Source: Chrysogorgia sp. JL179-B06
Taxonomy: Eukaryota > Cnidaria > Anthozoa > Scleralcyonacea > Chrysogorgiidae
NCBI GenBank assembly: GCA_035772405.1
Contig: JAYKKM010000307.1
Location: 560,501-624,500, forward strand
Length of the DNA stretch: 64,000 nt
Direction: 5' to 3'
Made by a program: the position numbers and the translations under genes. Positions 10,873 to 28,895 of this stretch are shown one piece after another. The notes beneath the pieces were generated by a model, which saw nothing but the letters and a program-made list of their open reading frames with translations, was not told the origin of the DNA and did no database searches. Positions within the stretch are counted from its first letter, which is position 1. Each line of letters begins with the position of its first letter.

Positions 10873-11106
10873 GTCTTCCTGACCAAAATCATAATATATC
10901 TTGTCAGCCGAAAATTTAATCTTCATGGACTTTTTTGCTGTCAAAGTTACCGGATGTGATGTCACAAGAGGCATTCCAAACCGGTGTTCCTTTGTTACTT
11001 GCCACAAAAATGCCTCTTGTGACATCACATCCGATAACTTTAACAACAAAAAAGTTCATGAAGATGAAATTTTCGGCTGACAAGATATATGATTTTGCTC
11101 AGGAAG
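10873..11106. repeat. Large foldback immediately outside the left Polinton terminus
   Basis: Two arms of about 100 bp are inverted copies of each other (shared TGACATCACATCCG and TTTTCGGCTGACAAGATATA) around a roughly 35-bp spacer. It ends 16 bp before the left terminal repeat of the Polinton-like element. It looks like a palindromic MITE; no coding capacity is supported. Confidence 0.8.
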
Positions 11107-11122
11107 ACAAACGTGAGATAGG

Positions 11123-11390
11123 AGTAGTAAGAAACAGTGCGTTTCATCTCATTTCAAAAAAGTGAGTTGAAACGCACTGTTATTTGAGAGTGAGGTGGTG
11201 TCCCGCCTTCCCCAAAACCCCCCGCGGTCATTTTTTGGGTGAACCCCCCACGCGGTCACTCTCCCCCAGTCCCCCCGCCGCGCGCTCGGTCACTTCCGGT
11301 TGAGTGGATGACGTCATTCGAAAAAAATAAATTTCTAACCTGATTGAGTTAGAAATTTATGTAGTTATTTTAACATTTTACAAATAAGTG
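11123..11390 (+). repeat. Left terminal inverted repeat of the Polinton-like element (268 bp)
   Basis: It matches the inverse of 30295-30589. From the tip inwards it contains a 49-nt imperfect palindrome (11133-11181) and a C-rich block with three CGGTCA-containing repeats (about 11224, 11252 and 11287). It then has a TGACGTCA palindrome at 11309-11316 and a 13-bp-stem hairpin at 11327-11360. It includes the last 13 bases of the DNA polymerase gene. Confidence 0.93.
11327..11360. terminator. Hairpin 3' of the DNA polymerase gene, inside the left terminal repeat
   Basis: ATAAATTTCTAAC (11327-11339) pairs perfectly with GTTAGAAATTTAT (11348-11360) around an 8-nt loop. It lies 18 bp beyond the polymerase stop codon. 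The same hairpin at 30325-30358 follows the outermost right-hand gene. A transcript 3'-end role is inferred from position. Confidence 0.5.
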
Positions 11391-14300
11391 CACGAATCTC
11401 CAATTCTAAAGTGCCCCAAAGCCAGCGTGTTAACTCCATCAGGTAAGATGTGTCGCTTATCGTCATTAGAACTTAACGCTGTCTTGTTAATAGCTTCGGT
11501 GTAGATCTCATGTCCACGTGATCTGAACACGTTCATGGTTTTGTACGCAGGATCGCCAGTGAGTAGACAATCCCTGTAGTCGTCGAACTTAATGTCCTTG
11601 TCGACTACGCCTTTTTTAACACCTTTACACTTTTTCTGATCACCACGCAATGTTCTGAACGCGTAGAGCTTAGCTCTTAGTCCAACGAATTCTAAGACCT
11701 GTTCACCATGATGCTCGTCTTTCATCATACCGACCACCTTCTTGTTGAGACCTATTGGGATACAGCTCGGGTGGTTTTTTACGTAACCGGATGTGTCAAA
11801 CCTCTCCTTAACATCATCAGCGATGTCATCGTAGAAGTCGTCTGTGAAAATTTCGTACATGAGACTATCCGTGTCAGTGAAAAGTAACGTAACCTTATCA
11901 CCGTATTTTGGTTTGATATAGTCGTAGTGAAACTCGTACATGATAGTCTTTGAAATGTCGAGTATGGACATCCCGAGGTAGACTGGCTTGTCGAACTTCA
12001 CTTTAGTCCGTCTCATGTGGACAGCGACTAAATTCTCGTCGAAAATAGTCCTATGGTGATAATTAGGCTTGGCGACTAACTTTCTCATCTTTTCTTCCGT
12101 GGTGACTAGCTGGATGTCAACTCTCTTACGAATATTTTCCATGGTTTTTCCAAAAACAGAGTTATTCATGAGCTTGAAAAAGTCTTTCTCAAACTCGTTC
12201 TTCGCCTTAGTCCTAAGCCGCGTGTTAAGGTCGATGTACGGTTTCATCCACCGACTCTCGAAAAATGTTATTCCACGATGGATCTTTGTGAGTTTCAACC
12301 CTAACCTCAAGTACATCTCAAGATTTTTCTTGTGAAGCACGTAGTTGGTCTTGTTATTCAAATTTGGGATGAGCTTCTCTACTCCGTTAACCATGACTCT
12401 CTCCGGTGCTAAAGGATAGTCATTATGAAGGTCGTGGAGCTCTTCTGGATATTCTAGATCTACTTCTAGAATGCATGGGAAGTCTCGCCAGTTCTCTAGC
12501 TGGTCTTCTGCTATCCACTTGAAACCATGCGTGGGTAGCGGTTCACCCATCCCACCACCGTATAGATTGTTATTGTCTAAGTCTGGTAGAAAGACGCTTG
12601 GTTTTGTAGGATCGTATAGTGAGTCTCCAGTACGTTCAATGATCTCATCACTATTAAGGTGATCCATATACTTGTTGTTCGCAACAGCGTGTCTCTTAGT
12701 GATAGTGCTAACCCCACCACGAATTCCAGCCTCTAACATCAACAGCATGTCTATGTCTGTGATTAACTCCAACTTCACTCCGGTAACTTTAAGTAACGCA
12801 TCCCAAGCTAATCCAGGTGCAGTGTAGTAGAATGCAGGGTCCAGTTCGTAATGAGTTTTACATGTCTTCCTGAAATTCTGAAAGACGTCTTCTAGTAACA
12901 TCACGTCCGTCTTCAGGTAGAGATCATGGTATTCACGCATGGTGGTCATCTCGAAGTGTTTCCAAACTTTCGTAGCGTGTCGGTAGTCTTCTTCAGAGAT
13001 GTCAGTGTTGTTCAGTTTCGAGTGGAACTTTTCTATGGTAGGTAACCATCTCTCGTCGAGAGATGACAACCCAGTCATATGTTCGTAGGGATAGACACCT
13101 TTCTGTGAGACTAACTCGAAGTTCTTGCCAAACACTCTTTTCGTTGAGACTAGATCGTCACTATCAAGATTTTTGACTAACTTGTCTAGACTAGAAGGCA
13201 TGAATTTGACGCTATCGATGAATCTTATTTCTCGCTTGACAGGTCTCTCCTCACCGTCGTTATCTGTCTCGTGATCAACAACGATGTCCTTACTGAACGA
13301 GATATATTTCTCCTCATTGTTCGGAATACATCTGATGTCACCCTCCGTGATGCTAAGATTTTTTATGAAAAGATGTGAGTCATAACCAGACAAGTTGTGA
13401 AAAATAACCGGCACGAACTTCGGAAGCTTATATCTCAAGTTACAACTGCTATGTGCAGCACCACGATACTTACCAGTGAGGTGACAGTGGTCTCTGACTT
13501 TACGGTCTGGATTACCTTTTTTGGTCTTCTGAGTCCAGTCCTTACCACACAACCAACACGACTCACTACTCTCATGGACTTGTTTGTCATCTGATCCGTA
13601 GATCATCTCTTTCGCGACTTTGAACTTGTCGTAAATGTTCTTGACGGCTTTCTCCACCTCCACGACAAATTTTTCACCGATGTTCTCACCTTCAGTTTTT
13701 TTAGTGTAGAGGTAGGGTTCTTCGTAGTGAAGTGAGTCATCATGACACTTTAGGTGAAAACAAAATCCAGATGGTGTGTGGTGTTGGTATTGCGTGGTTG
13801 AGCTACGTGAGTCGTCGTTGACACATCCGTCGATAGGTTCGATGAAGCTCTCGAAGTCCGCGTAGATTACAAATGGTACGTCTTGTGTTTTGTAGACATT
13901 CTCAAACTTTATGGTGCTCCCCTCTTCTGGCATTTCTGTCTTAATACTGTCCACGTTCGAACAACGCTCGACGTGTTTCTCTAGAACTATCTCACTAGTG
14001 AAACTATTTAGACACCGATAGCAAAAGTAGATCTTTCCATTATGTTTTCTCTTAGCGCTGGATAACAACCGGCTCATATTTTTAATCCACGCGTAGTGAG
14101 AGTTAACCGTCCCATCTTCAAGCTGTTCTGTAATGAGTAACAGGTTAATAGTGTTTTTTGGGTCACCTCCAATGAGAAGTGGGTAGACACCGGTTTTCTC
14201 TTCGTATGCGAACACGTTGATGTTAATCTTGTTGTTTTTCGTGAACTTCTTAATGTCCGATAGTGGTGTGGGGAATGAGATCCCACTCCAGTCAAACTTC

Positions 14301-15067
14301 TCAGACTCTACTCTTAGGTTTTTACTTAACCTCTCCGCATTTTTTTGTATCAACGATCTCGCGGAGGTGATGGCCCATTTGATGCACTCGTTGTCAGCCT
14401 TGTTTTGAACGTTGACGATCGCGAGTTTTTTAACCAACGCCGCCGGTGTTGGGATATATGACGACCCGCTTATTGGCTTATATGTGTCAATGTATATGTC
14501 TAGTTTCACGACACGTAGGACTCGCCATCCACTACCTTTTTTCAAGTAAGTCGACAAGTTTTCTAGAATTTTTCCGACAGATCTATCGTATAGCTCATCC
14601 ATATCGGTCCCAGACAACGTGGTGTTCACGAGAGAGCGAAACATCGCGACCGCTTCGACAGGTCCAGCGTCAGTCGCTCTCACCATAACACATTCCAACG
14701 CGAGTTTTGTTTTTAATCCACTCCTCTTTTTTACTTCGCTAGTCCAAAGGTCGATCACGAGAGTTTTCGAATTCGCTAGAAACGTCTTTGGATCTACTTT
14801 CCCTTGAGCGTCTATAGTGAAAGTCTCTGAAAATCCACGCATAGACTGTTCAGTCCTCTCTACGACTTGATCTTGCGCGTCGTGGAACTCTTCTTCTGGT
14901 TCTTGTGCGTCGTGGAACACATCTTCTGGTTCGGTCGTCTCGAATAGGGAGGTTACCTTACTTTTTAGAGACGTGAAAGCAGCTGCGACTCTCTCCCTAA
15001 TTGGCTCTGGTGTATGACTAACAAACCAGTCAGACCATTTGCTAAGTTTTCCTTTCAAGTAGTTCAT
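11378..15067 (-). CDS. polB: Family B DNA polymerase of Polinton type (pPolB)
   Basis: A 1,229-residue polymerase that would replicate the element, probably by protein priming as in related linear genomes. Landmarks in order: acidic repeats with two FHDAQ units (about residues 50-65); a C2H2-like finger FCYRC...H..RC (about 345-365); the ExoI motif YADFES (about 402); a Cys-x2-Cys plus DHCHLTGKYRG plus Cys module resembling the endonuclease VII zinc region (about 510-545); and GYDSHL, ExoII (about 560). There follow YLKTDVM, ExoIII (about 720); DNNNLYGG, motif A (about 830); NNSVFGKT, motif B (about 970); and TDTDSLMYE, motif C (about 1065). All catalytic acids are present, and length is normal for the family. 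It is the leftmost gene and reads outward, so its last codons lie in the terminal repeat. Upstream, AATAAATAGATAAG precedes the start codon. Confidence 0.95.
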   Translation of the reverse strand: MNYLKGKLSKWSDWFVSHTPEPIRERVAAAFTSLKSKVTSLFETTEPEDVFHDAQEPEEEFHDAQDQVVERTEQSMRGFSETFTIDAQGKVDPKTFLANSKTLVIDLWTSEVKKRSGLKTKLALECVMVRATDAGPVEAVAMFRSLVNTTLSGTDMDELYDRSVGKILENLSTYLKKGSGWRVLRVVKLDIYIDTYKPISGSSYIPTPAALVKKLAIVNVQNKADNECIKWAITSARSLIQKNAERLSKNLRVESEKFDWSGISFPTPLSDIKKFTKNNKININVFAYEEKTGVYPLLIGGDPKNTINLLLITEQLEDGTVNSHYAWIKNMSRLLSSAKRKHNGKIYFCYRCLNSFTSEIVLEKHVERCSNVDSIKTEMPEEGSTIKFENVYKTQDVPFVIYADFESFIEPIDGCVNDDSRSSTTQYQHHTPSGFCFHLKCHDDSLHYEEPYLYTKKTEGENIGEKFVVEVEKAVKNIYDKFKVAKEMIYGSDDKQVHESSESCWLCGKDWTQKTKKGNPDRKVRDHCHLTGKYRGAAHSSCNLRYKLPKFVPVIFHNLSGYDSHLFIKNLSITEGDIRCIPNNEEKYISFSKDIVVDHETDNDGEERPVKREIRFIDSVKFMPSSLDKLVKNLDSDDLVSTKRVFGKNFELVSQKGVYPYEHMTGLSSLDERWLPTIEKFHSKLNNTDISEEDYRHATKVWKHFEMTTMREYHDLYLKTDVMLLEDVFQNFRKTCKTHYELDPAFYYTAPGLAWDALLKVTGVKLELITDIDMLLMLEAGIRGGVSTITKRHAVANNKYMDHLNSDEIIERTGDSLYDPTKPSVFLPDLDNNNLYGGGMGEPLPTHGFKWIAEDQLENWRDFPCILEVDLEYPEELHDLHNDYPLAPERVMVNGVEKLIPNLNNKTNYVLHKKNLEMYLRLGLKLTKIHRGITFFESRWMKPYIDLNTRLRTKAKNEFEKDFFKLMNNSVFGKTMENIRKRVDIQLVTTEEKMRKLVAKPNYHHRTIFDENLVAVHMRRTKVKFDKPVYLGMSILDISKTIMYEFHYDYIKPKYGDKVTLLFTDTDSLMYEIFTDDFYDDIADDVKERFDTSGYVKNHPSCIPIGLNKKVVGMMKDEHHGEQVLEFVGLRAKLYAFRTLRGDQKKCKGVKKGVVDKDIKFDDYRDCLLTGDPAYKTMNVFRSRGHEIYTEAINKTALSSNDDKRHILPDGVNTLALGHFRIGDSCTYL

Positions 15068-15119
15068 CTTATCTATTTATTATTGTGTGCTCACTTTAAA
15101 CAAAAGTCGATTCTATAAG

Positions 15120-15146
15120 TTTCGAAAGACACAAAGCCTTTCGAAA
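15120..15146. terminator. Hairpin between polB and the upstream small gene
   Basis: TTTCGAAAG (15120-15128) pairs with CTTTCGAAA (15138-15146). It lies just past the stop codon of the minus-strand gene at 15161-15451 and before the start of polB, the position seen for hairpins after other genes of this element. Confidence 0.5.
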
Positions 15147-15160
15147 TTAAAAAAAGTTTC

Positions 15161-15451
15161 TCATCTCACGAACTCAACGTATTCTGATTCACTCATTCGA
15201 GTTTGTAAAAAGTAAAATATCACTCCAGACGAGTGAAAATAATGACGACGAACCATCGCTATCAGCATGTCAAGAGTCATGTCACCGTCTTCGTCAGTGT
15301 ATACTCTGGTGAACGTTTCAATCTCGTGGTTGGAGACAGTCTGTCCATATCCGAGTACTTCGAACAGTAGAACAAGTCTAAGCATACTGTCGGCTTCGTT
15401 AAACCAGGTGTCTATTATCATCTCGATAAGTTCACTTGTTATCATGTTCAT
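15161..15451 (-). CDS. Small acidic, probably helical protein of unknown function
   Basis: 96 residues, with Met-rich helices at the N-terminus (ITSELIEMIIDTWFNEADSM) and a DEDGDMTLD segment that superficially resembles an EF-hand loop. A single loop with no clear partner is weak evidence of calcium binding. No catalytic motif or membrane segment is seen. It lies between the polymerase and a DNA-binding protein in the replication-side minus-strand block, which is the only hint of role. Met3 would be an alternative start. Family not recognised. Confidence 0.65.
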   Translation of the reverse strand: MNMITSELIEMIIDTWFNEADSMLRLVLLFEVLGYGQTVSNHEIETFTRVYTDEDGDMTLDMLIAMVRRHYFHSSGVIFYFLQTRMSESEYVEFVR

Positions 15452-15495
15452 TGTTCGTCTTTACTTTTACAACTTTTAAACAAAGTGAACTCGAT

Positions 15496-15906
15496 TCATT
15501 CTTTTCGAAATGTATACGTAACTCCGTCAACTATGAGACTTTTCCCTGTTTTTATACGGTAAGTAATAGACCCTGCAAACATTTTCAAACTGTTTGCTAA
15601 CTCAAATATACTTTTGTATTTTGTTTCCTCTCCAGTGTCCGTGTTTGTTTTAGTCACGATCTGAGCAGGTTTTCTAACTCTACAATGATTGTATCTTTTC
15701 GGTAATTCTATTGGGTCTAACTCTAGTGTCTCTCTAATTTCGCTACGACTTACGTTACATCTTAGTTTAACTCCTCGCTCTTTCGCGATAGTTTTTAAAT
15801 CTTTTAGAGTTTGATAGTCGTCCTTCTCTTTTTTTGGTTTTTGTTTTCTTACATACTTAACTTTTGGTTTTTGAATTTTGTTGAGTGAACCTTTTGGTCG
15901 TGTCAT
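15496..15906 (-). CDS. Basic DNA-binding protein with NUMOD1/SAP-like segments
   Basis: 136 residues. The N-terminus is strongly basic and starts with an AT-hook-like RPKGSLNK stretch. The middle (TLKDLKTIAKERGVKL) resembles a SAP-type helix pair. The C-terminus (SIFELANSLKMFAGSITYRI followed by G.SLIVDGVTYTF) has the shape of a NUMOD1 helix-turn-helix repeat, as found next to homing nucleases and in viral DNA-binding proteins. It probably binds element DNA and may act in replication, packaging or regulation. Upstream ATATAAAAAGAG precedes the start. A partial repeat of the GSLNKI coding sequence lies just upstream at about 15938-15970, in another frame. Confidence 0.7.
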   Translation of the reverse strand: MTRPKGSLNKIQKPKVKYVRKQKPKKEKDDYQTLKDLKTIAKERGVKLRCNVSRSEIRETLELDPIELPKRYNHCRVRKPAQIVTKTNTDTGEETKYKSIFELANSLKMFAGSITYRIKTGKSLIVDGVTYTFRKE

Positions 15907-15957
15907 CTCTTTTTATATAATGTCTTTTTTTAAAGAAAAAATGTTTTTCAATTTTGT

Positions 15958-16131
15958 TTAGAGATCCATCACGAGGACGACACCTAATCTGATAGATTGA
16001 GCACCCCATTTGACGAGGTGACCACCCGCTACTAACAAGACACAACCTACTGTCAACTTTGTTGTGAATGCAAAGGTGGAGGTGTCTTTCACAATGATCG
16101 TACTGTTGTCTTCACTAGTAGTGTTGTCCAT
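15958..16131 (-). CDS. Small membrane protein (57 aa)
   Basis: A short gene starting at the ATG of AATAAATGG (16131) and ending TAA at 15958-15960. The first 28 residues are polar and Ser/Thr-rich. They are followed by hydrophobic KLTVGCVLLVAGGHLV and a second hydrophobic stretch (IRLGVVLVMDL), so one or two short membrane helices are likely. The gene is supported by its start context, shared with most genes of the element, and by filling the gap between two clear genes. Similar small membrane proteins are usual in Polinton-type elements. Function unknown. Confidence 0.7.
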   Translation of the reverse strand: MDNTTSEDNSTIIVKDTSTFAFTTKLTVGCVLLVAGGHLVKWGAQSIRLGVVLVMDL

Positions 16132-16142
16132 TTATTATAAGT

Positions 16143-16170
16143 TTTCCAAACACGTTACTGTGTTTGGAAA
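16143..16170. terminator. Hairpin after the 16189-16692 gene
   Basis: TTTCCAAACAC (16143-16153) pairs perfectly with GTGTTTGGAAA (16160-16170) around a 6-nt loop. It sits between the stop codon of the upstream minus-strand gene and the start of the next. Confidence 0.55.
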
Positions 16171-16188
16171 CTATAGGGAGACACTAAC

Positions 16189-16692
16189 TTAGAAGAGTAT
16201 ACGTTCACGTTTTAGTTTCGTTTTCGTTTCTTTCTTTTCGTCTAAGATTACTATTTCATGAAAGTACAACTGTAAGTGTGCTACTCCGTCTTTGATGAAT
16301 GCACTACTCACATCGATGGCTGTATTTACTTTGTATTTCTTAAGTTTCAACAGATCGTCGAATTTCACCTCCTCATCGTCCTCCTTGTACGCTGTGAAGA
16401 GATCAGGATTCGCTTTGACGTATACCTTGTCATTGTACAATCCACTTTTCACTTCAGTGACCACGACACCCTTGTTCGCAAGTCCTTTCAAACAGTCTTC
16501 TCCAACCTTCTCCAGTTTCGCCAACTGGTCTTCATCGAGACACAACGCTGCAGTGAATTTTGTCTTATCAAACTTACTCACTTGAACACCAAATGTGAAC
16601 ACATCTTTGAGTAGGATAGGTTTCATTTTGATACTCACTGTAGCGTTGTTGAATTTCTTGTTAATCATACACTTTCCAAATTCTATACTCAT
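16189..16692 (-). CDS. Possible single-stranded-DNA-binding (OB-fold-like) protein
   Basis: 167 residues, soluble and with alternating strand-like segments (NATVSIKMKPILLKDVF, KFTAALCLDEDQ, HLQLYFHEIVIL) around a charged middle (YKEDDEEVKFDDLLKLKKYK). The pattern of a substrate-loop region followed by AIDVSSAFIKDGVAHLQLYF resembles phage and viral single-stranded-DNA-binding proteins, and the gene stands in the replication-side block near the polymerase. There is no diagnostic motif, so this is a guess from overall shape and context. TATAATAAAGAG precedes the start. Confidence 0.55.
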   Translation of the reverse strand: MSIEFGKCMINKKFNNATVSIKMKPILLKDVFTFGVQVSKFDKTKFTAALCLDEDQLAKLEKVGEDCLKGLANKGVVVTEVKSGLYNDKVYVKANPDLFTAYKEDDEEVKFDDLLKLKKYKVNTAIDVSSAFIKDGVAHLQLYFHEIVILDEKKETKTKLKRERILF

Positions 16693-16747
16693 TCTCTTTA
16701 TTATACTCTACTTTTTTCCAATCACCTAGTGTGCGTTATTGATTTCT

Positions 16748-17149
16748 TTAAACGATGTACGCCAACATCTTGTAACCAACCCACCCCGTACCTAGATACA
16801 TTGCTCCTTCTGTTATCGATAGGTACTCTTGCATCTCTGACGATGGTGTATAGTAATCGCGTAATTTTGGTTCTTTGCGAAACGTTGCGCTAAGTAAGTC
16901 AAGAGCTGAGTTTGTGACGTTTATGTCGCGGTTAGCGTCCGACAAAGCAAGTCGTAGTCTCGCAAGTTTGTCACGATGTTCAACCTCTTCTTCATTCCAC
17001 TTTTCTCTCTCTCGCGCGAGTCTTTCCATCGCAAGGTTGTGACGTTTCATCTCTTCGCCGTATTTGTTCCCATCTAGACTTTTGAAAAGAAAACCAGCAC
17101 CTGCAAATGCAAGTGCATTGAATAATCCTCCTGCCATCATAGTTGTCAT
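16748..17149 (-). CDS. Membrane-anchored coiled-coil protein
   Basis: 133 residues. A hydrophobic, Gly/Ala-rich N-terminal segment (GGLFNALAFAGAGFLFKSL) is a likely membrane anchor. It is followed by a highly charged coiled coil from about residue 30 to 90 (KRHNLAMERLAREREKWNEE onward). The C-terminus (MYLGTGWVGYKMLAYIV) is again hydrophobic. Proteins of this layout recur in Polinton-type elements of invertebrates and may be structural. It diverges from the next plus-strand gene across a 71-bp gap (17150-17220) that must hold both promoters. Upstream AAAATAAAAG precedes the start. Confidence 0.65.
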   Translation of the reverse strand: MTTMMAGGLFNALAFAGAGFLFKSLDGNKYGEEMKRHNLAMERLAREREKWNEEEVEHRDKLARLRLALSDANRDINVTNSALDLLSATFRKEPKLRDYYTPSSEMQEYLSITEGAMYLGTGWVGYKMLAYIV

Positions 17150-17220
17150 CTTTTATTTTATCAACTATAGTTTTTCATTCACCTCCATATTTTAATTAAA
17201 CTCGACTTCTCCTCTAATAA

Positions 17221-17424
17221 ATGTTTACAGGAGCACGATCACGACAATCACATTTAGAAGAGTACGCAATTAAAGTGTTGAAATTAGAGAAAAAGATTGT
17301 GGAGTTAGAGGATTACGCAAAGTTTCGCGTAGAGAAAATAAATACTCTGGAGTATGAGAATAAGTATTACAAAAGTCAACATGGTGAGGCGACTGTTAAA
17401 AAGAGGTCACTAGGTTCTGACTAG
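17221..17424 (+). CDS. Short coiled-coil protein (67 aa)
   Basis: Almost the whole protein forms heptads (LEEYAIKVLKLEKKIVELED, then INTLEYENKYY). The ends are basic, and no membrane segment is seen. The start is chosen because TAATAAATG precedes it directly, as in most genes of the element. A 43-bp tandem repeat begins just before or at its stop codon. Function unknown; a scaffold or oligomerisation role is plausible. Confidence 0.6.
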   Translation: MFTGARSRQSHLEEYAIKVLKLEKKIVELEDYAKFRVEKINTLEYENKYYKSQHGEATVKKRSLGSD

Positions 17425-17566
17425 CTTTGACATGTGTGTGACTAGCTTTTGACTAGAATTTGACTAGCTTTGACATGTGTGTGACTAGCTTTTGACTAGA
17501 ATTTGACTAGCTTTGACATGTGTGTGACTAGCTTTTGACTAGAATTTGACTAGCTTTGACTAGAAC
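17419..17566. repeat. 43-bp tandem repeat, about 3.3 copies
   Basis: The unit contains TGACTAGC, TTGACATGTGTG and TTTGACTAGAA. The spacing of the CATGTGTG core is exactly 43 bp twice (17431, 17474, 17517). It fills the gap between the 67-aa and 109-aa genes and is the only tandem array inside the element. Confidence 0.9.
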
Positions 17567-17577
17567 TATAGATAAAG

Positions 17578-17907
17578 ATGGAAACCATAACGAACAATAA
17601 ACCTGAGAAGATAAAAGATCCACGACGAGTAGCCTCTGGGAAAAGACTTGCTGTAATTAGTAAAGAGGCAAAAGAGAGAAAAGCTCGTGAGAGATTTGAA
17701 GAGGGAGAGCGATGTAATGAACGAAGTGAAAGCGATTTTAGTTTTGAGTATGCTATTGGAACGATTGGTGCTATCGCAGGTGTTGGTGCACTGTACTTTG
17801 CGTACCTACAAAACAAATCTCAAGACGAGTCTCAAGACAAGTCCACACCACCGTCATCAACGACACCTATCACACCTGTTACCTCTGCCCTCGAGACTTT
17901 TGACTAA
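17578..17907 (+). CDS. Single-span membrane protein with basic N-terminus (109 aa)
   Basis: The first 45 residues are basic and carry a KDPRRVASGKRLA segment of a kind seen in Polinton-type elements. A hydrophobic helix follows (YAIGTIGAIAGVGALYFAYL, about residues 58-78). The tail is polar and rich in Ser, Thr and Pro with a repeated SQDxSQD unit. The order suggests a bitopic membrane protein. Function not known. Confidence 0.7.
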   Translation: METITNNKPEKIKDPRRVASGKRLAVISKEAKERKARERFEEGERCNERSESDFSFEYAIGTIGAIAGVGALYFAYLQNKSQDESQDKSTPPSSTTPITPVTSALETFD

Positions 17908-17926
17908 AAAACACTATAATAAAAGA

Positions 17927-18151
17927 ATGACAGATCGAAAAGTAATCATGAACGAAGTGTACGATACTTTACTCTACGTCGCAGCCGCAGTTGGTATTAG
18001 TATGGTATCAAAGAAAGTTTTTGGAGAGTCACTTGGAACACCAAGTAGTCTTGTCGGGACATTGAAACTCGCGGTCGCAGTGAGTGCTGGAACAGTCGCT
18101 GTGAAACTTGCACAACAAAAAGGATTCGTCCCTGACGATCCTTTCGAGTGA
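17927..18151 (+). CDS. Small hydrophobic membrane protein (74 aa)
   Basis: The start at 17927 is preceded by ACTATAATAAAAGA, matching the start context of neighbouring genes; a longer reading frame from 17687 overlaps the previous gene and is not needed. The protein has two hydrophobic stretches (YDTLLYVAAAVGISMV and LKLAVAVSAGTVAVKL) separated by a Gly/Ser-rich turn, and ends PDDPFE. It is a candidate two-span membrane protein of unknown role in the block of membrane-protein genes. Confidence 0.7.
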   Translation: MTDRKVIMNEVYDTLLYVAAAVGISMVSKKVFGESLGTPSSLVGTLKLAVAVSAGTVAVKLAQQKGFVPDDPFE

Positions 18152-18174
18152 GAGTTAGTTTAGACGTATGTTTT

Positions 18175-18194
18175 TGTAATGAGTAGTCATTACA
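18175..18194. terminator. Hairpin after the 74-aa membrane-protein gene
   Basis: TGTAATGA (18175-18182) pairs with TCATTACA (18187-18194) around GTAG. It is T-rich on the 5' side and lies 23 bp past the stop codon at 18151. Confidence 0.5.
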
Positions 18195-18220
18195 CAATTT
18201 TTTCTCGTTCATAATAAAGA

Positions 18221-18598
18221 ATGTTCAGTCAAAACTTAGAAGAGTTAAGTCTTGCGGTGAAGAAAGATTTGCGGAGTTCAAAGAAGAAAATGTTACGACT
18301 CAAAGTGAAAGCTATTGTGAAAGTGATTGTGACCACAGTTGTGCTTGTCAGTGGGATAGTCGTGACTATCTTGGTTCCGAATCCAATAACAGGAGCTATC
18401 GCTCTTGGTGCAGCCACGATGTTGTCGGGATCAGAAGGGATTAAACATACGGTGAAAAGGTTCAAGTCTGTGAGAGAAAACAAGAAGATTATCAAAGAGA
18501 CAGACAAAGAGACTGATGAGAGGATCTTCGTTGATAAAATTAGAACTTCGATGGGTGATCCGACTGCACCACCTCTGTATCCAAATTTGGAAGCATAG
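18221..18598 (+). CDS. Two-helix membrane protein ending in overlapping PTAP, PPxY and LYPxL motifs
   Basis: 125 residues. A basic N-terminal helix is followed by a hydrophobic segment (IVKVIVTTVVLVSGIVVTIL, about 33-52) and a second one (ITGAIALGAATML, about 55-70). A charged cytoplasm-like region then ends in DPTAPPLYPNLEA. This tail contains PTAP, PPLY (PPxY) and LYPNL (LYPxL). In enveloped viruses these motifs recruit TSG101, NEDD4-family ligases and ALIX, respectively, to drive ESCRT-mediated budding. The position at the extreme C-terminus of a membrane protein suits that role, but function here is inferred. CATAATAAAGA precedes the start. A hairpin and a convergent gene follow. Confidence 0.8.
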   Translation: MFSQNLEELSLAVKKDLRSSKKKMLRLKVKAIVKVIVTTVVLVSGIVVTILVPNPITGAIALGAATMLSGSEGIKHTVKRFKSVRENKKIIKETDKETDERIFVDKIRTSMGDPTAPPLYPNLEA

Positions 18599-18626
18599 AA
18601 CGGCATCCGCTGTATTCAGATTTATT

Positions 18627-18657
18627 TTTTTTTGTAACCAGAACGATTACAAAAAAA
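18627..18657. terminator. Hairpin between convergent genes
   Basis: TTTTTTTGTAA (18627-18637) pairs with TTACAAAAAAA (18647-18657). It lies between the plus-strand gene ending at 18598 and the minus-strand gene ending at 18664, so one structure could serve both strands. Confidence 0.6.
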
Positions 18658-18663
18658 GTTCTC

Positions 18664-19452
18664 TCACACTATGTTATACTCTAACATCATACTCTTGTTC
18701 AATCTTGAGATGTCACCTGAATCTAGGAAACCACTCACAATCTTCAACCCATGTATCTCACCCGAGACGGGTTTGTTGAGTAACGACGCCTTGGAGAAGA
18801 CTAAACTAAACTTTGATGCAGAGTCACTGCGAGAAGATCTTGCTGTGGAGAACCGTTCATTGAAAAAGATCGAACCAAACGTAGCTCCATTTGCTTTCTG
18901 GTTTGCCGTGAAGTCACTGTTTGAAGATTTTATATCATTCAGACGAATATGACTTCCATTCATTAACCAGTGACATGATATTAAATGTTTCTCCAACCTA
19001 TTGACACTTGGTGGAACTTCACAGTTATACTCTCCTACAGGCCATCCACCACCGAATGTGATCTTATCGTTGGGATCAGAGTTGTTGTACGCGATGAATT
19101 TGTCGTAACTCCCATTGTCATTACCAATGATATATGACCAACCTCCAGGAGTAGGTTCTGAGAGTAGTTTGAACACTACGAAGATAGACACATTGATTGT
19201 GGTGAGTCTAGGACAGTCAAAAATCATTCTACTTGATCTTCGATTTCTAATGAAACCATCACCAACTGAAGGACTTTTACTGTAGGTGACTTGATGAAGA
19301 TAAGAATCTCCATCTTTGACTCTTGTGATTCTTGATCTACCCGTGTGAGGTGTGATCACTGCATTAGACATGTTGATGTTAAAAATAGTCTCGTATGGTA
19401 GTTTTTTCTCTACTTCAACATTATCTTTGTCATATCCAAGGTACAAACTCAT
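18664..19452 (-). CDS. LamG/pentraxin-like (concanavalin-type lectin fold) protein
   Basis: 262 residues. The C-terminal two thirds follow the pattern of LamG-like jelly-roll domains: strand-rich segments (TINVSIFVVFKLL), a WSYIIGNDNGSYDKF region, HWLMNGSHIRLND, and a terminal GEIHGLKIVSGFLDSGDISR helix-turn typical of the end of such domains. No signal peptide or membrane helix is seen. In a virus-like element such a domain suggests a surface or fibre protein that binds glycans or host proteins; this is inference. It starts 5 bp after the stop of the upstream minus-strand gene, with AGAATAAATG at the start. Confidence 0.6.
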   Translation of the reverse strand: MSLYLGYDKDNVEVEKKLPYETIFNINMSNAVITPHTGRSRITRVKDGDSYLHQVTYSKSPSVGDGFIRNRRSSRMIFDCPRLTTINVSIFVVFKLLSEPTPGGWSYIIGNDNGSYDKFIAYNNSDPNDKITFGGGWPVGEYNCEVPPSVNRLEKHLISCHWLMNGSHIRLNDIKSSNSDFTANQKANGATFGSIFFNERFSTARSSRSDSASKFSLVFSKASLLNKPVSGEIHGLKIVSGFLDSGDISRLNKSMMLEYNIV

Positions 19453-19457
19453 TTATT

Positions 19458-20804
19458 CTATAGTACGAACTTACTTACCATCACTCCCATCAGTATCAAC
19501 GACACGGGAAACAAACTGGGAGACGATGTCTTTTTCACAGTGTCTAATGTTTCCAAATGTTCACCACCACTCGTGTGTGTTTTTGGTCTCTTCACTATAT
19601 TTTTAAAATTAAGTTCACTATTGAAACCAAACACCATGTTCGTCTCTGACGACTCTCTCAGTAAATTATTATATCCTGGAATAGGTGTTTTTAGCAAAAC
19701 CATACTTCGTGGTATTAGCCATGTGTTTGGAGTGACTGCCATATCTAACTTGACGTTCGTATCTTTAATAGCTTTGTTCATGAAGTTGATCCATGTACTT
19801 GGTGAATATTGTACAACTGCATCTTCAACGATATTTCTAAACACTTGTTGAACTTCACGAGCACTCGCACGACTACCTACAATACTTTGTTTGGATTTTG
19901 CCTGTGCACCGAGTAATGCGTAGACGTAGACTTCTATAGATTGGTTCAAGAGTTCCTGTCCTAACTCGGTGATCCCATTGCTCACTCTTGGACAGTACCG
20001 TTTGTAGTCTCCTTGCAAGTCTTTGATAATACTTACCCAATTACCACCTAGAGGGAGATGATCTCTTAAAATTCTATAATCTGGTACATACAACCTGAGA
20101 ATGTTAGCGATGTCAACACTAGACTTGTCAAGACGAAACATTACCCTTCGCATAGTGAAATACACATGAAATCTCATGAGACTTGTTATTTGTTTCGGGA
20201 CGTCTGAGTTAGGTGTTAGGTTTTGTAAAGACACCCCAGACCTGTACGTGGCGATGTACATCGCTGCAATAGCTTGGTAGTAACTCTTCGACAATGTCCA
20301 CACTGTACTGATCATACTCCCGTCTGGTCCATCCTGATAGTATTTTTTTGTGTCTATCACTATCTTGGGTAGGTTAGAGTTAAAGTAATTCTTATCGTCC
20401 ACGTACACATTAAAGTCGTTGACTTGATAGTTGAGTATGTACGGTGGATAGGTCACGTTAGACGTGCCGGCTCTTTCCGTATGCAAGAGTTTTTGTACTG
20501 TACCACCACTATTCCATATTCTCGGGAAAGGTGTGTTGTTGTGTAACCATTTCCACATACTTTGATCGTTCTTGAATGTGGTGCTGGTAATGTCAGTCGA
20601 GAGTATGTCACTATTTCGAAAATATACATCTACTCTCGTCACGTCACCGTCTTGTGTCTCGACTGGATCAAATTCAAACTTACTCAGTGTGATGAATGGA
20701 TATTTTTTCAATAGATCAGACTTTGCTTTTTGAGTTGCAATTTTAGAGTTTTTCATCGCTTTGTCATAGTTATCACCATAATAAGATTGTATCATTTTCT
20801 CCAT
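19458..20804 (-). CDS. Large unrecognised structural-type protein with C-terminal membrane anchor (448 aa)
   Basis: The start is taken at MEKMIQSYYG (20804), because the frame further upstream would cross into the divergent gene. The protein is long, polar and Tyr-rich, with no catalytic motif I can identify. It ends with a hydrophobic segment (LFPVSLILMGVMVSKFVL), a plausible tail anchor. It is divergent from the candidate minor capsid gene with only 7 bp between start codons and is followed directly by the lectin-like gene. A virion surface or tail-anchored structural role fits the context but is not shown. Confidence 0.7.
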   Translation of the reverse strand: MEKMIQSYYGDNYDKAMKNSKIATQKAKSDLLKKYPFITLSKFEFDPVETQDGDVTRVDVYFRNSDILSTDITSTTFKNDQSMWKWLHNNTPFPRIWNSGGTVQKLLHTERAGTSNVTYPPYILNYQVNDFNVYVDDKNYFNSNLPKIVIDTKKYYQDGPDGSMISTVWTLSKSYYQAIAAMYIATYRSGVSLQNLTPNSDVPKQITSLMRFHVYFTMRRVMFRLDKSSVDIANILRLYVPDYRILRDHLPLGGNWVSIIKDLQGDYKRYCPRVSNGITELGQELLNQSIEVYVYALLGAQAKSKQSIVGSRASAREVQQVFRNIVEDAVVQYSPSTWINFMNKAIKDTNVKLDMAVTPNTWLIPRSMVLLKTPIPGYNNLLRESSETNMVFGFNSELNFKNIVKRPKTHTSGGEHLETLDTVKKTSSPSLFPVSLILMGVMVSKFVL

Positions 20805-20811
20805 TTTATAA
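20805..20811. promoter_or_regulatory. Seven-base gap between two divergent start codons
   Basis: The sequence from the minus-strand start (CAT, 20802-20804) through TTTATAA to the plus-strand ATG (20812) is nearly palindromic and contains TATAAA in both directions. Any promoter must lie inside the opposite gene, or transcripts must be leaderless or start here. Confidence 0.5.
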
Positions 20812-21489
20812 ATGAAAAGACTATCAGTGTTTATCGAGAATGGTAATAAAACAGTCATGTTGGACAGGAGTTTAATACTCCCAACGTGTTCAACTCTCGT
20901 CGTAAAGTCGGCGAGTGTGTTTTGGGATTATAAGAATGTGATTAAAGACTACAATGATGTTATTCAGTACAACTCACAAAAGATTACACTACCCACCGGA
21001 TATTGGTCATTCGAGAGTCTTGCAAAGTATTTTGTCGACAACGACACTACAAAACTAACAATCTCACACAACGTGCACGATCATACATGCACACTAAAAA
21101 CAGAACACCCTATCAAATTATACAAGTTTGGAGAGTTACTTGGTTTCCCAACAGACACCCTTGTACCAAAAGGAGAGGAGGTTAGTCCTGGTAGGATAGA
21201 TATCAACAGAGGTCTAAGATTTGTAGAGATTCATTGTGACACTCTTGTAGACAAGACTATAGATGTGTCTGGTAAACAAAGTAGCGTTATCGCAGTTCTC
21301 CCTATCACATCAGAGTCTACACTCAGTGGTAGTGTATTACATTTTCCAACGGTCGAGTCTAGTGTTTCCACTCGTAATGGGACGTACAATAACTTGTCTT
21401 TTCATACCAAGACGAATGTGAGCGGTATAGATCAGGTAGGGAGTGTTTTGATTGACATTAATATACTTTCCAATAAAAAGTATGGATAG
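20812..21489 (+). CDS. Candidate minor capsid (penton-like, jelly-roll) protein
   Basis: 225 residues, strand-rich and soluble. The layout matches a Polinton protein family often proposed as the minor capsid or penton subunit. It has an N-terminal pair of strands around SASVFWDYKNV, then the segment LPTGYWSFESLAKYF, a LLGFP motif, then INRGLRFVEIHCDTLVDK and a C-terminal VLIDINIL strand. It overlaps the integrase start by 8 bp (ATGGATAG) and sits with the capsid and packaging genes on the plus strand. The capsid role is inferred from family pattern and context. Confidence 0.6.
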   Translation: MKRLSVFIENGNKTVMLDRSLILPTCSTLVVKSASVFWDYKNVIKDYNDVIQYNSQKITLPTGYWSFESLAKYFVDNDTTKLTISHNVHDHTCTLKTEHPIKLYKFGELLGFPTDTLVPKGEEVSPGRIDINRGLRFVEIHCDTLVDKTIDVSGKQSSVIAVLPITSESTLSGSVLHFPTVESSVSTRNGTYNNLSFHTKTNVSGIDQVGSVLIDINILSNKKYG

Positions 21490-22177
21490 AAGTGTTGTAA
21501 CAGAACAGAGTCTAAGAGATTTGTATTATAACCCTGTGACTGGTTATCAAAGTATGGAAAGACTATATCAAAAAGCATTAGAAGAAGGTTTGAGTGTAAG
21601 TAGAAAGTCTGTGAAAGAATGGTTGAAAACCCAAGACACTTTCACACGATACAAGTCTATAGTGAGACGACACAAATTCCGAAAAACATGGGTCTCATAC
21701 CTTGGTGAACAAATTCAACTTGATCTTGTTGATATGGGAAAATACAAAAACAAAAATAACGGTTACTATTGGATACTCACATGTGTTGAGATTCTTAGTC
21801 GTTACGCTTTTGCTATCCCTGTGTATCGAAAAGATACGAAAAACATGACGAAAGCCGTAGACGAATTACTACGACAGTTTCATGAAAGATTTGAAATGTA
21901 TCCAAAATTTGCACAGTTCGATGAAGGATTAGAATTTTACAATGTAGGTGTTAAAAACTTATTAAGTGAACATGACATAGAGTATTTCTCCACGAACTCT
22001 GATAAGAAAGCGGCTGTGGTTGAGAGATTCAACAGAACCCTGAAGACAAGTATGTGGAAATATTTCTACAGTAAGGGAACGTACAAGTGGATAGACGTTC
22101 TAGACGATCTTGTTGAGAGTTATAACCACACGAAGCATAGTAGTATTCTCATGAAACCAGTAGACGTCAATAAGACT
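21482..22177 (+). pseudogene. int: Retroviral-type integrase, 5' part (interrupted by a transposon)
   Basis: The frame starts at the ATG overlapping the stop of the previous gene. The first 70 residues form the HTH-type N-terminus usual in Polinton integrases (LYYNPVTGYQSMERLYQKA, WLKTQDTF). The rve core follows with D in QLDLVDM, D in QFDEGLEF and E in VVERFNRTL, the DDE catalytic triad, then YNHTKHSS. The enzyme would insert the element into the genome. After position 22177 the sequence switches abruptly to a hAT-like insertion, and the frame ends a few codons later. The remaining roughly 20 codons resume in frame at 24432-24494, past the duplicated AGACT. Confidence 0.9.
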
Positions 22178-24426
22178 CAGGGGCGGATCTAGGATTTTTT
22201 TTACCTCAGTCAAATTTCTGTGAAGTGAAATAGTAAGGGGGGTACGGGGGCATTCCCCCCCGGAAAATTTTTATATTCGGGGTCTCTGAAATGGCATTTC
22301 CTGCATTCTGAGAGCACTTTGGAACAAAATTTAAAGGTCTCAAATAGCGATTTTTTTAATAGTGTTAATTTAATTTAGAAAAACATTTGGTCCAAATGTG
22401 GACTAGTTTCATTTTGCATGTAATTTTTCTGTACGTCAGCAAAAATAAGATTATTTTGATACTGAGTAATGAAAAGAAGAAAACATTATGTCATGTGAAC
22501 ACAGTGACAGGGAAAAACAAAAGCTACTGTATAGAACAATTGACCTGGCTGTTTTGCTCTATATAAGAGCTCATTAGTATGCTTAGGAAACACTAAAACC
22601 ATAACACTTGTGTGTTTTAGTCAGTGAACCAACATGGATGGCCTGGTCCATTGGTAGAACTTGACCTATGTGGTGGACCCAAAGCTATCTGGTTTTAAGG
22701 TGCCAGAAACCCACCTTTCACACCTGGTTAGAAGAGGGAGACCATATGGGATTGGGATATTTAATGCATGTGAAGTTGCTCAGTTTTCCACACCATCCTC
22801 ATATTAAACCATATACCAAACTGGAATTCATTAATCAATATTTATTGCATGAAAAGTTTGCATTAGGAAAAGTTCAATAGATGTCAGCAGACTCTACCAA
22901 TACCAATGAAACCGAGCTGTATAAACAGTTTCCAGCAGCTTCAGACCTATACTAGACATACGTTTCGCAATAACCCCCGCCCGCCTGTTCTCAATCTCGT
23001 ACACAGAGCCAACCTAGAGTTTCATCCACCCCCTGCGGGATTTTACCCATCACTGGTCCCCAGACCTCGCATGCCGTGTATTTCACTGTTGAAGCACGGT
23101 GCATAGATGTTGAACGTTATCTCGGCCAATATTCAACCGATTTCAATTCTGAAAACAGATTTGGAATTACCAAGTCTAAATACATAACATACGTGTGTAT
23201 TATATTACGATAACGTGTATACATTTCGTAAAAAACCTGTTTATGTAACTTCGTCGTATATTATTTTGAACGTTATCTCGGTCAATATTTCACCGTTTTC
23301 AATTCTGAAAACAGATTTGGAATTACCGAGTCTAAATACATAATATTCGTGCCTATTATGTTACACAAACGTGTACGCCCTTCGTAAAAACCTGCTTATG
23401 TTATCATAGGACATATGTTATCATAGGATTATGATATCATAGGACATTGAAGAACTCATATTTCATATCGACTATACGGTCTCACTCTGAGACTACTGAC
23501 TCAAATTTAAAGGCACAATCCAGTTCAAATATCAATAAAATCTAACGGGACTTGACCAAAGGCATTAGGCCGTGAGCATTTGAAATTCATAACATTTGCC
23601 ACGCAAAATGGCCGGCCCGTGGCAAGCGCGACATATGCTAATGTTGAGTCTTTGACATTCATGAATACTATAGCAGACAGCAAGACGCTACTGATAACAT
23701 AGGCTAAGTTTTGACAGCTATTAAAGAAGAGTTTGTGGACTTGGAAGCCTCTGCAGAGGAGAGAGGACTTACCTTACAGCAACACAAGACTTCCCTAGTT
23801 TCTTTACACTTGCATGCTGTGGAATATGAACATCTCGAGCCTAAATTTCTGCTCAAGAAGCTCGAAGTACTTCGAATTCAGTCATTCAAATGCTCCTCCA
23901 AAGAAACCAGTTGACGACTGCTTAATCTAAATGACATCGCTGCTCTGAAAATCAGATGCTACGCGTTCGAAAACGCTTAGAAAACTCATGACCGATACAA
24001 CAGCTAGTGTCCAAAGTGAGCTTCGTAGAATAAATTAAATCCTCAGCAGATCAGTCAGAATAATTAATATCAACGCAGGAGCCAATCAGATGGCTTATAT
24101 TCCAGAGACATTTCAGTCAGATCAGTCAAAATGACGTCAGATCAGTCAAAATGACGTAACACTGAGTTGCGTCCAATCAAATTGCTCTGCAGATCAGTCA
24201 AAATGGAGGGCAAATCAGTCAACCGCGTTAACGCGGGCTCTGGGAACGAGATGGAGCAGTCCGGCCGCTCATTTCCGGTTGACCCACTTCCGACTAACAA
24301 AATACGCTGTTTGGATACAGATTGCGAAATCTTTACTGCGCCTGAAGGTAGGGTCGGATTTTTTCACGCTCGCAAATTTTTACGTCAGTCGCGTGACTGA
24401 TTTGACTTACGCTAAATCCGCCCCTG
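22178..24426. mobile_element. Non-autonomous hAT-like insertion, 2,249 bp
   Basis: The ends are CAGGGGCGGATCTAG and its near inverse (TAAATCCGCCCCTG), flanked on both sides by AGACT (22173-22177 and 24427-24431). The terminal sequence is of hAT style, but the duplication is 5 bp rather than the usual 8. There is no transposase frame. Inside are a 156-bp-period tandem duplication (about 23112-23420, GAACGTTATCTCGG units) and several ATCAGTCAAAATGACGT repeats around 24120-24210. Related sequence occurs at 10588-10670. Confidence 0.85.
23112..23420. repeat. Tandem duplication of about 156 bp inside the hAT-like insertion
   Basis: Two adjacent copies, each starting GAACGTTATCTCGGYCAATA and containing CTGAAAACAGATTTGGAATT, begin at 23112 and 23268. 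They differ by scattered substitutions. Confidence 0.8.
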
Positions 24427-24431
24427 AGACT

Positions 24432-24494
24432 AATGAGAGTCAGGTATGGAGTACGAGGTTGGAAATGATGTCCACTACTCACGAGAGAGACTAG
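24432..24494 (+). pseudogene. int: Integrase, 3' end after the insertion
   Basis: Directly after the right-hand AGACT copy, the frame that continues the integrase codes for about 20 residues, including a QVW segment like that near the end of the Polinton integrase core, and stops at TAG 24492-24494. A longer C-terminal chromodomain, present in many Polinton integrases, is absent. It overlaps the next gene by 49 bp. Confidence 0.75.
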
Positions 24495-24682
24495 TAGAGT
24501 TGTTGGTGAGAGAGAAGAGGGCTAGGAGGATATCCATTGGGAAAGGGTTGGCCACCAAGGAGAAGATAGATAAACTAACGGACAAACTAACTACCACAAG
24601 AGCAGAGGTCGCCGATCATACAAGAAGGATCGGCTGGTTCGAGCAGGAGATTGCCAAGATGCCACCGTCACCTACTCTTTGA
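24446..24682 (+). CDS. Small coiled-coil protein (78 aa)
   Basis: The frame starts within the last codons of the integrase, in a different phase. Residues 10-70 are highly charged and heptad-like (SRERLVELLVREKRARRI, EKIDKLTDKLTTTRAEV, RRIGWFEQEIAKM). Overlap with the integrase end is typical of compact viral gene order. It lacks the AATAAA start context of its neighbours, so it may be translated from the integrase transcript. In this copy its promoter region has been displaced by the 2.2-kb insertion. Function unknown. Confidence 0.5.
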   Translation: MEYEVGNDVHYSRERLVELLVREKRARRISIGKGLATKEKIDKLTDKLTTTRAEVADHTRRIGWFEQEIAKMPPSPTL

Positions 24683-25075
24683 AGCCATTGGACATGTTGT
24701 CCTACGTTGAAAACACTATCTGACAAACACTGGTCGTCTCACCTTTAGAGGCGACCGAAACTTTTTTCAAAGTCTTGTACGTAAAAAATATATTTTTCAA
24801 AAATCTTACGAGTCGTTCGTTAATATCTAGTTTTTTAACGTAGTTCTCGTAGTGAGTGTCTCTAGACACTACCTACAGGGTCATAACTCAAGTTATCACT
24901 AAAAGAAAGCTAAAATTCGTAGTGTTTCCTACGGGTTTTTTAGACTTTCGCGGCTTTTTTTGTTTACGGCTTTCTTCTTCGCACGGGCGCGCGTGCGTAG
25001 TGGTCAGCGGAAACCCGCAACAACCAGTAGAGGGGCTCCCTCTAGGGAAAATTTTTTTTCTCCTCTACAAATAAA
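24683..25075. promoter_or_regulatory. Long leader region upstream of the 383-aa membrane-protein gene
   Basis: At 393 bp this is the longest gene-free stretch of the element. It holds T-rich tracts and two small hairpins: AGTGTC-TCTA-GACACT (24855-24870) and AGAGGG-GCT-CCCTCT (25029-25043). ACAAATAAA precedes the start codon. It may carry a promoter, a 3' end for the previous gene or a replication signal; none is proven. Confidence 0.35.
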
Positions 25076-26227
25076 ATGGCAGAAGCTGACGATAATTTTG
25101 AGATGGAAGAAAGGTTTCCAGAGTACGATAATCTGGATAACGAAGAGTTAGACACAACTCTTGACAATCTCAATCAGAGATTTCTGATTGATGACGACGT
25201 GTTAATTACTGAGAGGATCACATACATTAACCGCCTTCTTTTAGCCGAGACGAGTTTTGGTGGTGATGGTGTAGCGAATGATGTGTTTGCACAAGTGAAC
25301 AAATACGTACAAGACTCTCGTGAAGGACAAAAACTTAATCCTCTCTCAGAAAGTGTTATTGAACTTAGAAACAGAACTACCGTTAGAGACGGTAAAGTCT
25401 TTTTCAAAGAAAGACTAAAAAACGGTGGGTACTCTACTGTTGAGAAGATAGTTCTCAATCACGTGAACGGTTCTTACGTGAAAAACATAGCGAAAAGAAA
25501 CTCAAACGCCGTCTCACAATTCGAGAAACTCATCGAGTCTGCAGTAAGTGAAACGAACACGGCCTCCAACTTACCTATGATTTCTGTCGTAGACCAAGTG
25601 ACACTACCAGACGATGTTCTCAGTAGACTCGGTGAGGAGGACCGACGTGTTGTGAACGGTGTTCTTAACCCGTCGACTACAATCTTACCAGAGAGTAGAG
25701 TCGGTAGTCGTGGAGCGATCCAACTCATGATCGATGAGTTTCGAGAACGAAGTGATGCGAATCTTGAGTTAGCTAAAGACAGTGATATAGCTGACGCAAG
25801 GGAATTTTTTCAAAAGTCTTTCGATGAAGACGCGGTCGCCGACGCTTTTGAACGACAAAGGATTATCGAAGAAACACACGCTGAGCAAGAGAAAGACGTG
25901 AGTCGTCTAGAGAGAGTGAAAGAATGGTTGAAAAAAAATTTAATCAGTCTGTCGGCGATAGGTATCACCATCGCGGGGTTGATCACAACTATTATAGTTG
26001 GAGCGAGAACTGCTATTACGAAGGGAGCGAACGCGACGTTGTCGTTCGCAAAAGCGGTAAAGAACGCTATCGCTAGTCTAGGTCCGTTCGCGGTAGGAGT
26101 GGCAAATTTCGTCTACGCCTTGTTGAAGGCTGGTGCAAAAACACTACAGTGGTTAGCTCAAAACCTGTGGATTGTGGTCATTGGCGTGGTGTGGGCACTG
26201 AATGAGTATCGCAAAAATAAGAAATGA
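25076..26227 (+). CDS. Large membrane protein with C-terminal hydrophobic bundle (383 aa)
   Basis: The N-terminal 280 residues are acidic and mostly helical (EADDNFEMEERF, then helices to about 285). The C-terminal 100 residues are hydrophobic. One long segment (LISLSAIGITIAGLITTIIV, about 290-310) is followed by an amphipathic region and two more (FAVGVANFVYALL, WIVVIGVVWALN). The protein ends in Lys-rich residues. This layout recurs in Polinton-type elements of invertebrates, where its role is not settled; virion membrane or host-membrane interaction is possible. The start is supported by AAATAAAATG. Confidence 0.7.
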   Translation: MAEADDNFEMEERFPEYDNLDNEELDTTLDNLNQRFLIDDDVLITERITYINRLLLAETSFGGDGVANDVFAQVNKYVQDSREGQKLNPLSESVIELRNRTTVRDGKVFFKERLKNGGYSTVEKIVLNHVNGSYVKNIAKRNSNAVSQFEKLIESAVSETNTASNLPMISVVDQVTLPDDVLSRLGEEDRRVVNGVLNPSTTILPESRVGSRGAIQLMIDEFRERSDANLELAKDSDIADAREFFQKSFDEDAVADAFERQRIIEETHAEQEKDVSRLERVKEWLKKNLISLSAIGITIAGLITTIIVGARTAITKGANATLSFAKAVKNAIASLGPFAVGVANFVYALLKAGAKTLQWLAQNLWIVVIGVVWALNEYRKNKK

Positions 26228-26268
26228 ATCGAGTTTAAAAACGTTCTAAGATAAAGAGATAGTGAGAG

Positions 26269-26844: not shown

Positions 26845-26848
26845 ATAA

Positions 26849-27001: not shown

Positions 27002-27010
27002 ATTTTAGTC

Positions 27011-27037: not shown

Positions 27038-27055
27038 TTTTTCATACTATAATAA

Positions 27056-28276: not shown

Positions 28277-28292
28277 AGTTGAAAAATAAAAG

Positions 28293-28892: not shown

Positions 28893-28895
28893 AGA

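Follow-up and report, generated by a model that had tools for sequence, protein, structure and literature searches.

We analysed a 64,000-nucleotide stretch of DNA (hereafter the window) from the anthozoan Chrysogorgia sp. JL179-B06, contig JAYKKM010000307.1, in which an element of about 19.5 kb, taken here as a Polinton, encodes a candidate membrane protein with a tail of the type that recruits the endosomal sorting complexes required for transport (ESCRT). The open reading frame (ORF) lies at 18221-18598 on the plus strand and encodes 125 amino acids by translation, with the C-terminus DPTAPPLYPNLEA; we refer to its product as the hairpin protein, after its predicted membrane shape. Translation gave the terminal residues GDPTAPPLYPNLEA, and residues 114-123 hold three mutually overlapping motifs, as a first-pass annotation of the window had claimed. 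These are a TSG101-type PTAP (18560-18571, residues 114-117), a PPLY that overlaps its neighbours and lacks family-wide conservation (18569-18580, residues 117-120), and an ALIX-type LYPNL (18575-18589, residues 119-123), all on the plus strand. The annotation had further judged such a tail unlikely by chance, and indeed the three motifs never co-occurred when the 30 C-terminal residues were shuffled 300,000 times; P[ST]AP, PPxY and [LM]YP.[LI], the latter being the ELM motif pattern, were counted 1,231, 4,076 and 496 times, respectively. Among the 39 ORFs of at least 60 amino acids within 11000-30600, P[ST]AP was exclusive to the hairpin ORF, which alone carried more than one motif type, while three other ORFs carried one motif each (LYPGI, PPPY and VYPLL).

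We searched the host genome (781 Mb, 522 contigs) for further copies and scored the best 150 of 216 candidates, which gave at least 150 hairpin matches, all of them free of stop codons over the matched stretch. This suggests that the Polinton group is recently or still active. Eighty of the 150 matches, one per distinct score/identity class, were read, namely the window's own copy, seven loci from the search and 72 fetched loci. The tail was intact in 76 of them, corresponding to 72 distinct DNA sequences. All 72 contain both (S/T)AP and YP(N/D)L, the P(S/T)AP motif being complete in 68, and the pair is retained in each of the 12 groups that result from clustering at 85% identity. The arrangement is [PA][ST]AP, a spacer of one to four residues and xYPxx in 71 of the 72; the exception, L021, reads SSAPPMYPDL. 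On the (S/T)AP side, the 71 copies have P (68) or A (3) at the first position, followed by S (55) or T (16) and by invariant A and P. On the YPxL side, YP is preceded by L (35), I (33), M (2) or V (1), and the invariant Y and P precede N (57) or D (14) and an invariant L. For the seven copies read with 1.5-kb flanks (L002-L008), similarity to the window's element extends past the gene.

To follow selection codon by codon, changes were counted on a tree derived from the gene body, leaving out the copies with broken tails (L020, L043, L076 and L077). For the 71 copies, 51 silent changes and a single amino-acid change fell in the six core codons (P.AP plus YP.L; omega 0.008), against 609 silent and 343 amino-acid changes in the gene body (omega 0.171) and 24 and 46, respectively, in the four codons just upstream of the motif (omega 0.597). 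When L021, which the pattern had left out of this run, was restored, the 72 copies gave 52 silent and 2 amino-acid changes in the core, and 26 and 51 in the upstream four codons. When six body columns were drawn at random, 694 of 100,000 draws were equally clean, and amino-acid changes are entirely absent from one run of six adjacent body columns that starts at alignment column 67. The core is therefore about as conserved as the most constrained parts of the membrane domain, and it lies directly beside the fastest-drifting codons. These counts are rough parsimony counts from copies found through similarity to the window's protein, with broken tails omitted. Purifying selection acts on P(S/T)AP and YPxL; of the three motifs, these two are kept by selection as late domains are, and PPxY is not conserved.

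An anchor independent of the tail was provided by the neighbouring gene for a 466-residue protein (19458-20858, minus strand). A genome search with this gene, in which the best 91 of 3,758 candidates were scored, yielded at least 91 matches, 60 of which lie within 4 kb of a hairpin match. The remainder comprised 10 with a hairpin gene in the flanks read, 11 without one in 5.1 kb and 10 that were not assigned. For the 30 best loci (L081-L110), the hairpin gene lay within the flank in 26, and the match was farther off than the flank read in L087, L098, L100 and L105. Intact tails were present in 24 of these 26 genes, and all 24 retain (S/T)AP and YP(N/D)L. They include a divergent seven-element cluster with the tail PSAPPGYPDL, which was not among the matches listed by the hairpin search.

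Searches of the protein collection, the last of which scored the best 7,992 candidates, revealed 15 more distant relatives of the hairpin protein. In their alignment the tail is the part most variable in length, and nearly all of them have (L/M)YPx(L/I/V) and most (S/T)AP. For a test of the tails we used the window's protein and 13 of the 15 relatives, leaving out the truncated P0009 and P0016, a fragment with a near-duplicate tail; the tails of P0008 and P0010 are identical and both were counted, so that the 14 tails include 13 distinct ones. The pattern [LM]YP.[LIV] was found in 13 of the 14 tails (12/13 without the window) against a shuffled mean of 0.07, and the stricter [LM]YP.[LI] in 10 (9/13 without the window). 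P[ST]AP was present in 6 tails against a shuffled mean of 0.12, and [PAG][ST]AP in 12 (11/13 without the window) against 0.29. The order of the motifs varies, with MYPKL ahead of PSAP in P0007. In the excerpts of the ELM 2022 paper available to us, short LYPxL motifs are described as binding the ALIX V domain and as being used by viruses for budding (PMC8728146).

The third motif behaved differently. PPxY occurs in 14 of the 71 genomic copies, or 15 of 72 counting L021, and in none of the 13 relatives, so that the window's own tail is the only one of the 14 to carry it (shuffled mean 0.44). PPxY as a family feature was thus rejected, and the conservation in relatives to which the first-pass annotation had referred its claim was borne out for P(S/T)AP and YPxL and failed for PPxY. 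The PPxY motif arises whenever the residues that link P(S/T)AP to YPxL happen to put prolines ahead of xY, and the PPLY of the window most likely stems from the single spacer proline that separates PTAP from LYPNL. Across the 12 PPLY copies, this proline is written by three different codons with no amino-acid change; because its codons vary in this way, PPLY may have a role within that subgroup.

We also considered the membrane shape of the protein. An AlphaFold model, of low confidence (mean pLDDT, the predicted local distance difference test score, 62.7), placed helices at residues 2-51, 55-68 and 74-110, followed by a disordered tail, so that the earlier "two-helix" label was roughly correct. 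The first hydrophobic helix (18311-18376, plus strand; residues 31-52) has a best Kyte-Doolittle 19-mer of 2.62 and is helical in the model, and a second, weaker hydrophobic stretch (18389-18433, plus strand; residues 57-71) is uncharged and follows a PNP turn. In a set of 87 copies and relatives, median hydropathy is high for the first stretch (2.38) and moderate for the second (1.81 for the best 15-mer), which has a median of 0 charges, and both flanks are basic, with median net charges of +6 and +8. Charge and hydropathy are most simply read as suggesting a membrane hairpin whose two ends both lie in the cytosol. The family matched no known domain in Pfam, all matches being below the curated cut-offs or, where there was no cut-off, at E >0.02. 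A comparison of the model, itself poor, with a viral structure library gave no match at E<=0.001, and a PDB profile search gave 13 matches, none meaningful (best E 0.5). As for the potential partners, the host genome contains a TSG101 UEV exon, in which 35 of 55 aligned residues match a solved TSG101 UEV chain, a similarity that points to an animal host, as well as exons for the LYPxL-binding (V) domain of ALIX. The TSG101 residues that we take to contact PTAP (Tyr68, Asn69, Pro71 and Met95) are encoded by this exon and are shared by the host protein, and the presumed key phenylalanine of ALIX (676) apparently lies just beyond the exon read.

The element that carries the gene spans 11123-30589 and is bounded by inverted repeats whose arms are 99% complementary. 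The left repeat (11123-11390, plus strand) consists of arms at 11123-11276 and 11244-11390 that are 99% complementary to the right end, and the right repeat (30295-30589, plus strand) was recognized by its complementarity to the left end. A putative protein-primed DNA polymerase B of 1229 amino acids (11378-15067, minus strand) was called by eye from DTDS and KLMNNSVFG-type motifs; this ORF matched no polymerase family in Pfam or NCBIfam and had no PDB match. A retroviral-type integrase (21482-22192, plus strand) matches Pfam rve at E=1.2e-7 with 32.4 bits, slightly below the cut-off of 32.6, and a packaging ATPase (28293-28892, plus strand) matches Pox_A32 at E=4.2e-15. The putative major capsid protein (406 residues; 27056-28276, plus strand) was assigned from position and length and the candidate minor capsid protein (20812-21489) from position, neither having a family match. 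The gene adjoining the hairpin gene (18664-19452, minus strand) encodes 262 amino acids with no Pfam match and PDB matches at chance level. Polintons, or Mavericks, are about 15-25 kb in size. We take the carrier as a Polinton with reservations, since the polymerase was seen by eye and the capsid proteins were assigned by position. Scans of viral contigs with the hairpin protein, the capsid candidate, the ATPase, A2 and P0012 as queries found no relatives, nor did scans of genome contigs with A3 and of phages with the capsid candidate.

Several other features were observed within the element. A GIY-YIG endonuclease-like protein is encoded at 26269-26844 (Pfam E 6.7e-10), and the 383-residue product of 25076-26227, with a hydrophobic C-terminal part, is by its look a candidate membrane-active capsid-core protein. 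No ORF of 100 amino acids occurs over the roughly 2.9 kb of 22192-25076, a segment that contains a 128-bp direct repeat (23107/23263) and is possibly an insertion into the Polinton. At 17409-17560, upstream of the small membrane-protein genes, lies a 43-bp unit based on repeated GACTAG, which is shared with L008, there in apparently more copies, and is possibly regulatory. The small membrane protein at 17578-17907 was considered as a paralogue of the hairpin protein and rejected on comparison.

Taken together, these features are best explained by a membrane-anchored adaptor to ESCRT-I and ALIX that serves non-lytic release, and we regard this account as a whole as moderately probable. The short hairpin would anchor the protein in a cellular membrane with its N- and C-termini in the cytosol, and the disordered tail would offer two ligands, P(S/T)AP for the TSG101 UEV domain (ESCRT-I) and (L/I/M)YPxL for the ALIX V domain. 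ESCRT-III and VPS4 would thereby be brought to the sites where Polinton capsids contact the membrane, and the capsids would be wrapped or budded out without lysis, the hairpin protein acting either as an NS3-like helper or as a membrane protein of the virion. One component of this account, real recognition of the tail by TSG101 and/or ALIX, appears likely to us. The first-pass annotation had proposed ESCRT recruitment through all three motifs; judged by conservation, the proposal is well supported for P(S/T)AP and YPxL and does not extend to PPxY.

Several observations weigh against this account. Binding, topology, capsid contact and release are all inferred from sequence, and no envelope protein was recognized in a general Pfam scan, no search dedicated to one having been made. 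In the window's copy, the best 17-mer of the second hydrophobic stretch, from residue 52 on, reaches 1.24, and if the protein had a single spanning helix, the tail would be on the wrong side of the membrane. The orientation is therefore provisional, because this second stretch is weak, and the cytosolic tail that the earlier proposal presupposes is favoured indirectly by charge and hydropathy and disfavoured by that stretch. Tails are frameshifted or cut in four of the 80 copies read (L020, L043, L076 and L077) and frameshifted in two of the 26 neighbour-anchored genes (L085 and L103). The first motif position is A or S, not P, in 4 of the 72 distinct copies, and G stands before YP in the divergent seven-element cluster. 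Among the relatives, only 5 of 13 have a complete P[ST]AP, P0014 carries PAAP, and P0002 lacks YPxL, with LYPTE/YPNG instead. Furthermore, 11 more divergent elements with the neighbour gene (L115-L125) showed no hairpin gene in 5.1 kb. Since it was undetected there, the gene is not essential to every such Polinton; it is accessory in this group, and the tail is kept where the gene is present and unbroken.

Most of these 11 elements encode other proteins. L116-L118 share a different protein of 160 amino acids with two hydrophobic helices (L116:3722-4213, L117:189-692 and L118:3734-4216), which is well conserved among the three, adjoins a relative of the 262-residue gene in L116 and L118, and had no credible family match. 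It is reminiscent of SLATT-type proteins. Homology between it and the hairpin protein was not accepted, as a profile comparison covered 24 columns at 23.8% probability. The seven elements L119-L125 have a protein of about 320 amino acids, which in L123 (991-1983) belongs to DUF2738 (PF10927, E 2.1e-62) and in the other six resembles that of L123 by eye, and in L115 no replacement for the hairpin gene was recognized.

The same tail could bind TSG101 or ALIX for trafficking, entry or membrane repair and not for release, for instance in sorting to multivesicular bodies or in escape from endosomes in the manner of adenovirus protein VI, which uses PPxY and Nedd4 in entry. We consider this alternative possible but unlikely. 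The motif evidence is identical under both readings, and in the excerpts available, adenovirus protein VI appears as a canonical membrane-active core protein of related viruses, such "membrane-active capsid core" proteins having in some cases holin-like hydrophobic domains (PMC11071296). However, the family retains the ESCRT-I and ALIX motifs and not PPxY, and Adeno_VI was absent from the Pfam matches of the hairpin family.

Alternatively, YPxL might be a generic YxxPhi sorting signal for the clathrin adaptors of the AP type, with the proline-rich part as a flexible spacer, which we regard as improbable. YPxL does fit YxxPhi, and 13 of the 14 tails contain such a signal against a shuffled mean of 4.7. 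YxxPhi signals, however, need no proline at Y+1; all 71 copies have one there, and its codon shows 17 silent changes and no amino-acid change (the same over 72). The presence of [ST]AP in all 72 copies is also left unexplained. The invariant Y+1 proline led us to reject this signal as the full account. A chance coincidence of three motifs in a proline-rich tail is hardly credible: it stands for PPxY, which is not enriched in the tails, but for P(S/T)AP and YPxL the shuffle tests contradict it, as does the predominance of silent over amino-acid changes in the motif codons, and we rejected it for these two.

Among known systems, consulted as excerpts of the cited papers, the nearest working analogue of the proposed release adaptor is NS3 of the orbivirus bluetongue virus, with which the hairpin protein has in common a two-helix membrane architecture, here a predicted one, and late-domain motifs. 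Bluetongue virus has no envelope; its NS3 crosses the membrane twice, has polybasic stretches close to the membrane and carries late domains, PSAP (for TSG101) and PPRY (for NEDD4), that serve non-lytic release (PMC6949946). The late domains are N-terminal in NS3, whereas those of the hairpin protein are C-terminal; PPRY and PSAP are named for NS3 and YPxL is not, whereas the hairpin protein combines P(S/T)AP with YPxL; and NS3 further differs by a glycosylation site between its helices. No NS3 family was found among the Pfam matches of 16 members of the hairpin family at E<=1. Retroviruses likewise use such motifs, for example YPDL in equine infectious anaemia virus and PSAP, LYPAL and PPPY in murine leukaemia virus. 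As in the hairpin tail, ESCRT-I and ALIX motifs stand close together in retroviral Gag, and p6 of human immunodeficiency virus type 1 carries PTAP and LYPxnL (PMC2651531, PMC2958808). In Gag, however, the motifs belong to a structural protein of enveloped viruses, whereas here a DNA element encodes them in a stand-alone membrane protein. Another sign of infectious Polinton particles comes from nematode Mavericks with a putative fusogen (PMC10680173), which acts in entry and has no recognized equivalent in the window's element.

Late-domain proteins are thus known, and what is new is a dual-motif hairpin adaptor in Polintons. The first-pass annotation knew of no such tail described for these elements, and our literature search, which saw its sources in part, agrees with it; a mention in the adintovirus (2021) or nematode Polinton (2023) work is possible, and a virophage review, as excerpted, counts PPxY motifs in virophage proteins. 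Whether Polintons form infectious particles, and how these leave the cell, is an open question: their capsid genes argue for virions, and in the text available from one paper an extracellular form had not yet been detected as of 2021 (PMC7805220). That particles of an animal Polinton lineage exit by ESCRT-driven wrapping or budding through a dedicated dual-motif membrane adaptor is, in our estimation, evenly balanced between true and false. If true, the exiting particles would be enveloped, quasi-enveloped or enclosed in vesicles, and Polintons would gain a non-lytic exit, with the adaptor gene absent or swapped in sister elements. A strongly kept motif pair in an otherwise unrecognizable protein would, in any case, offer a concrete and cheap test of an extracellular phase of Polintons.
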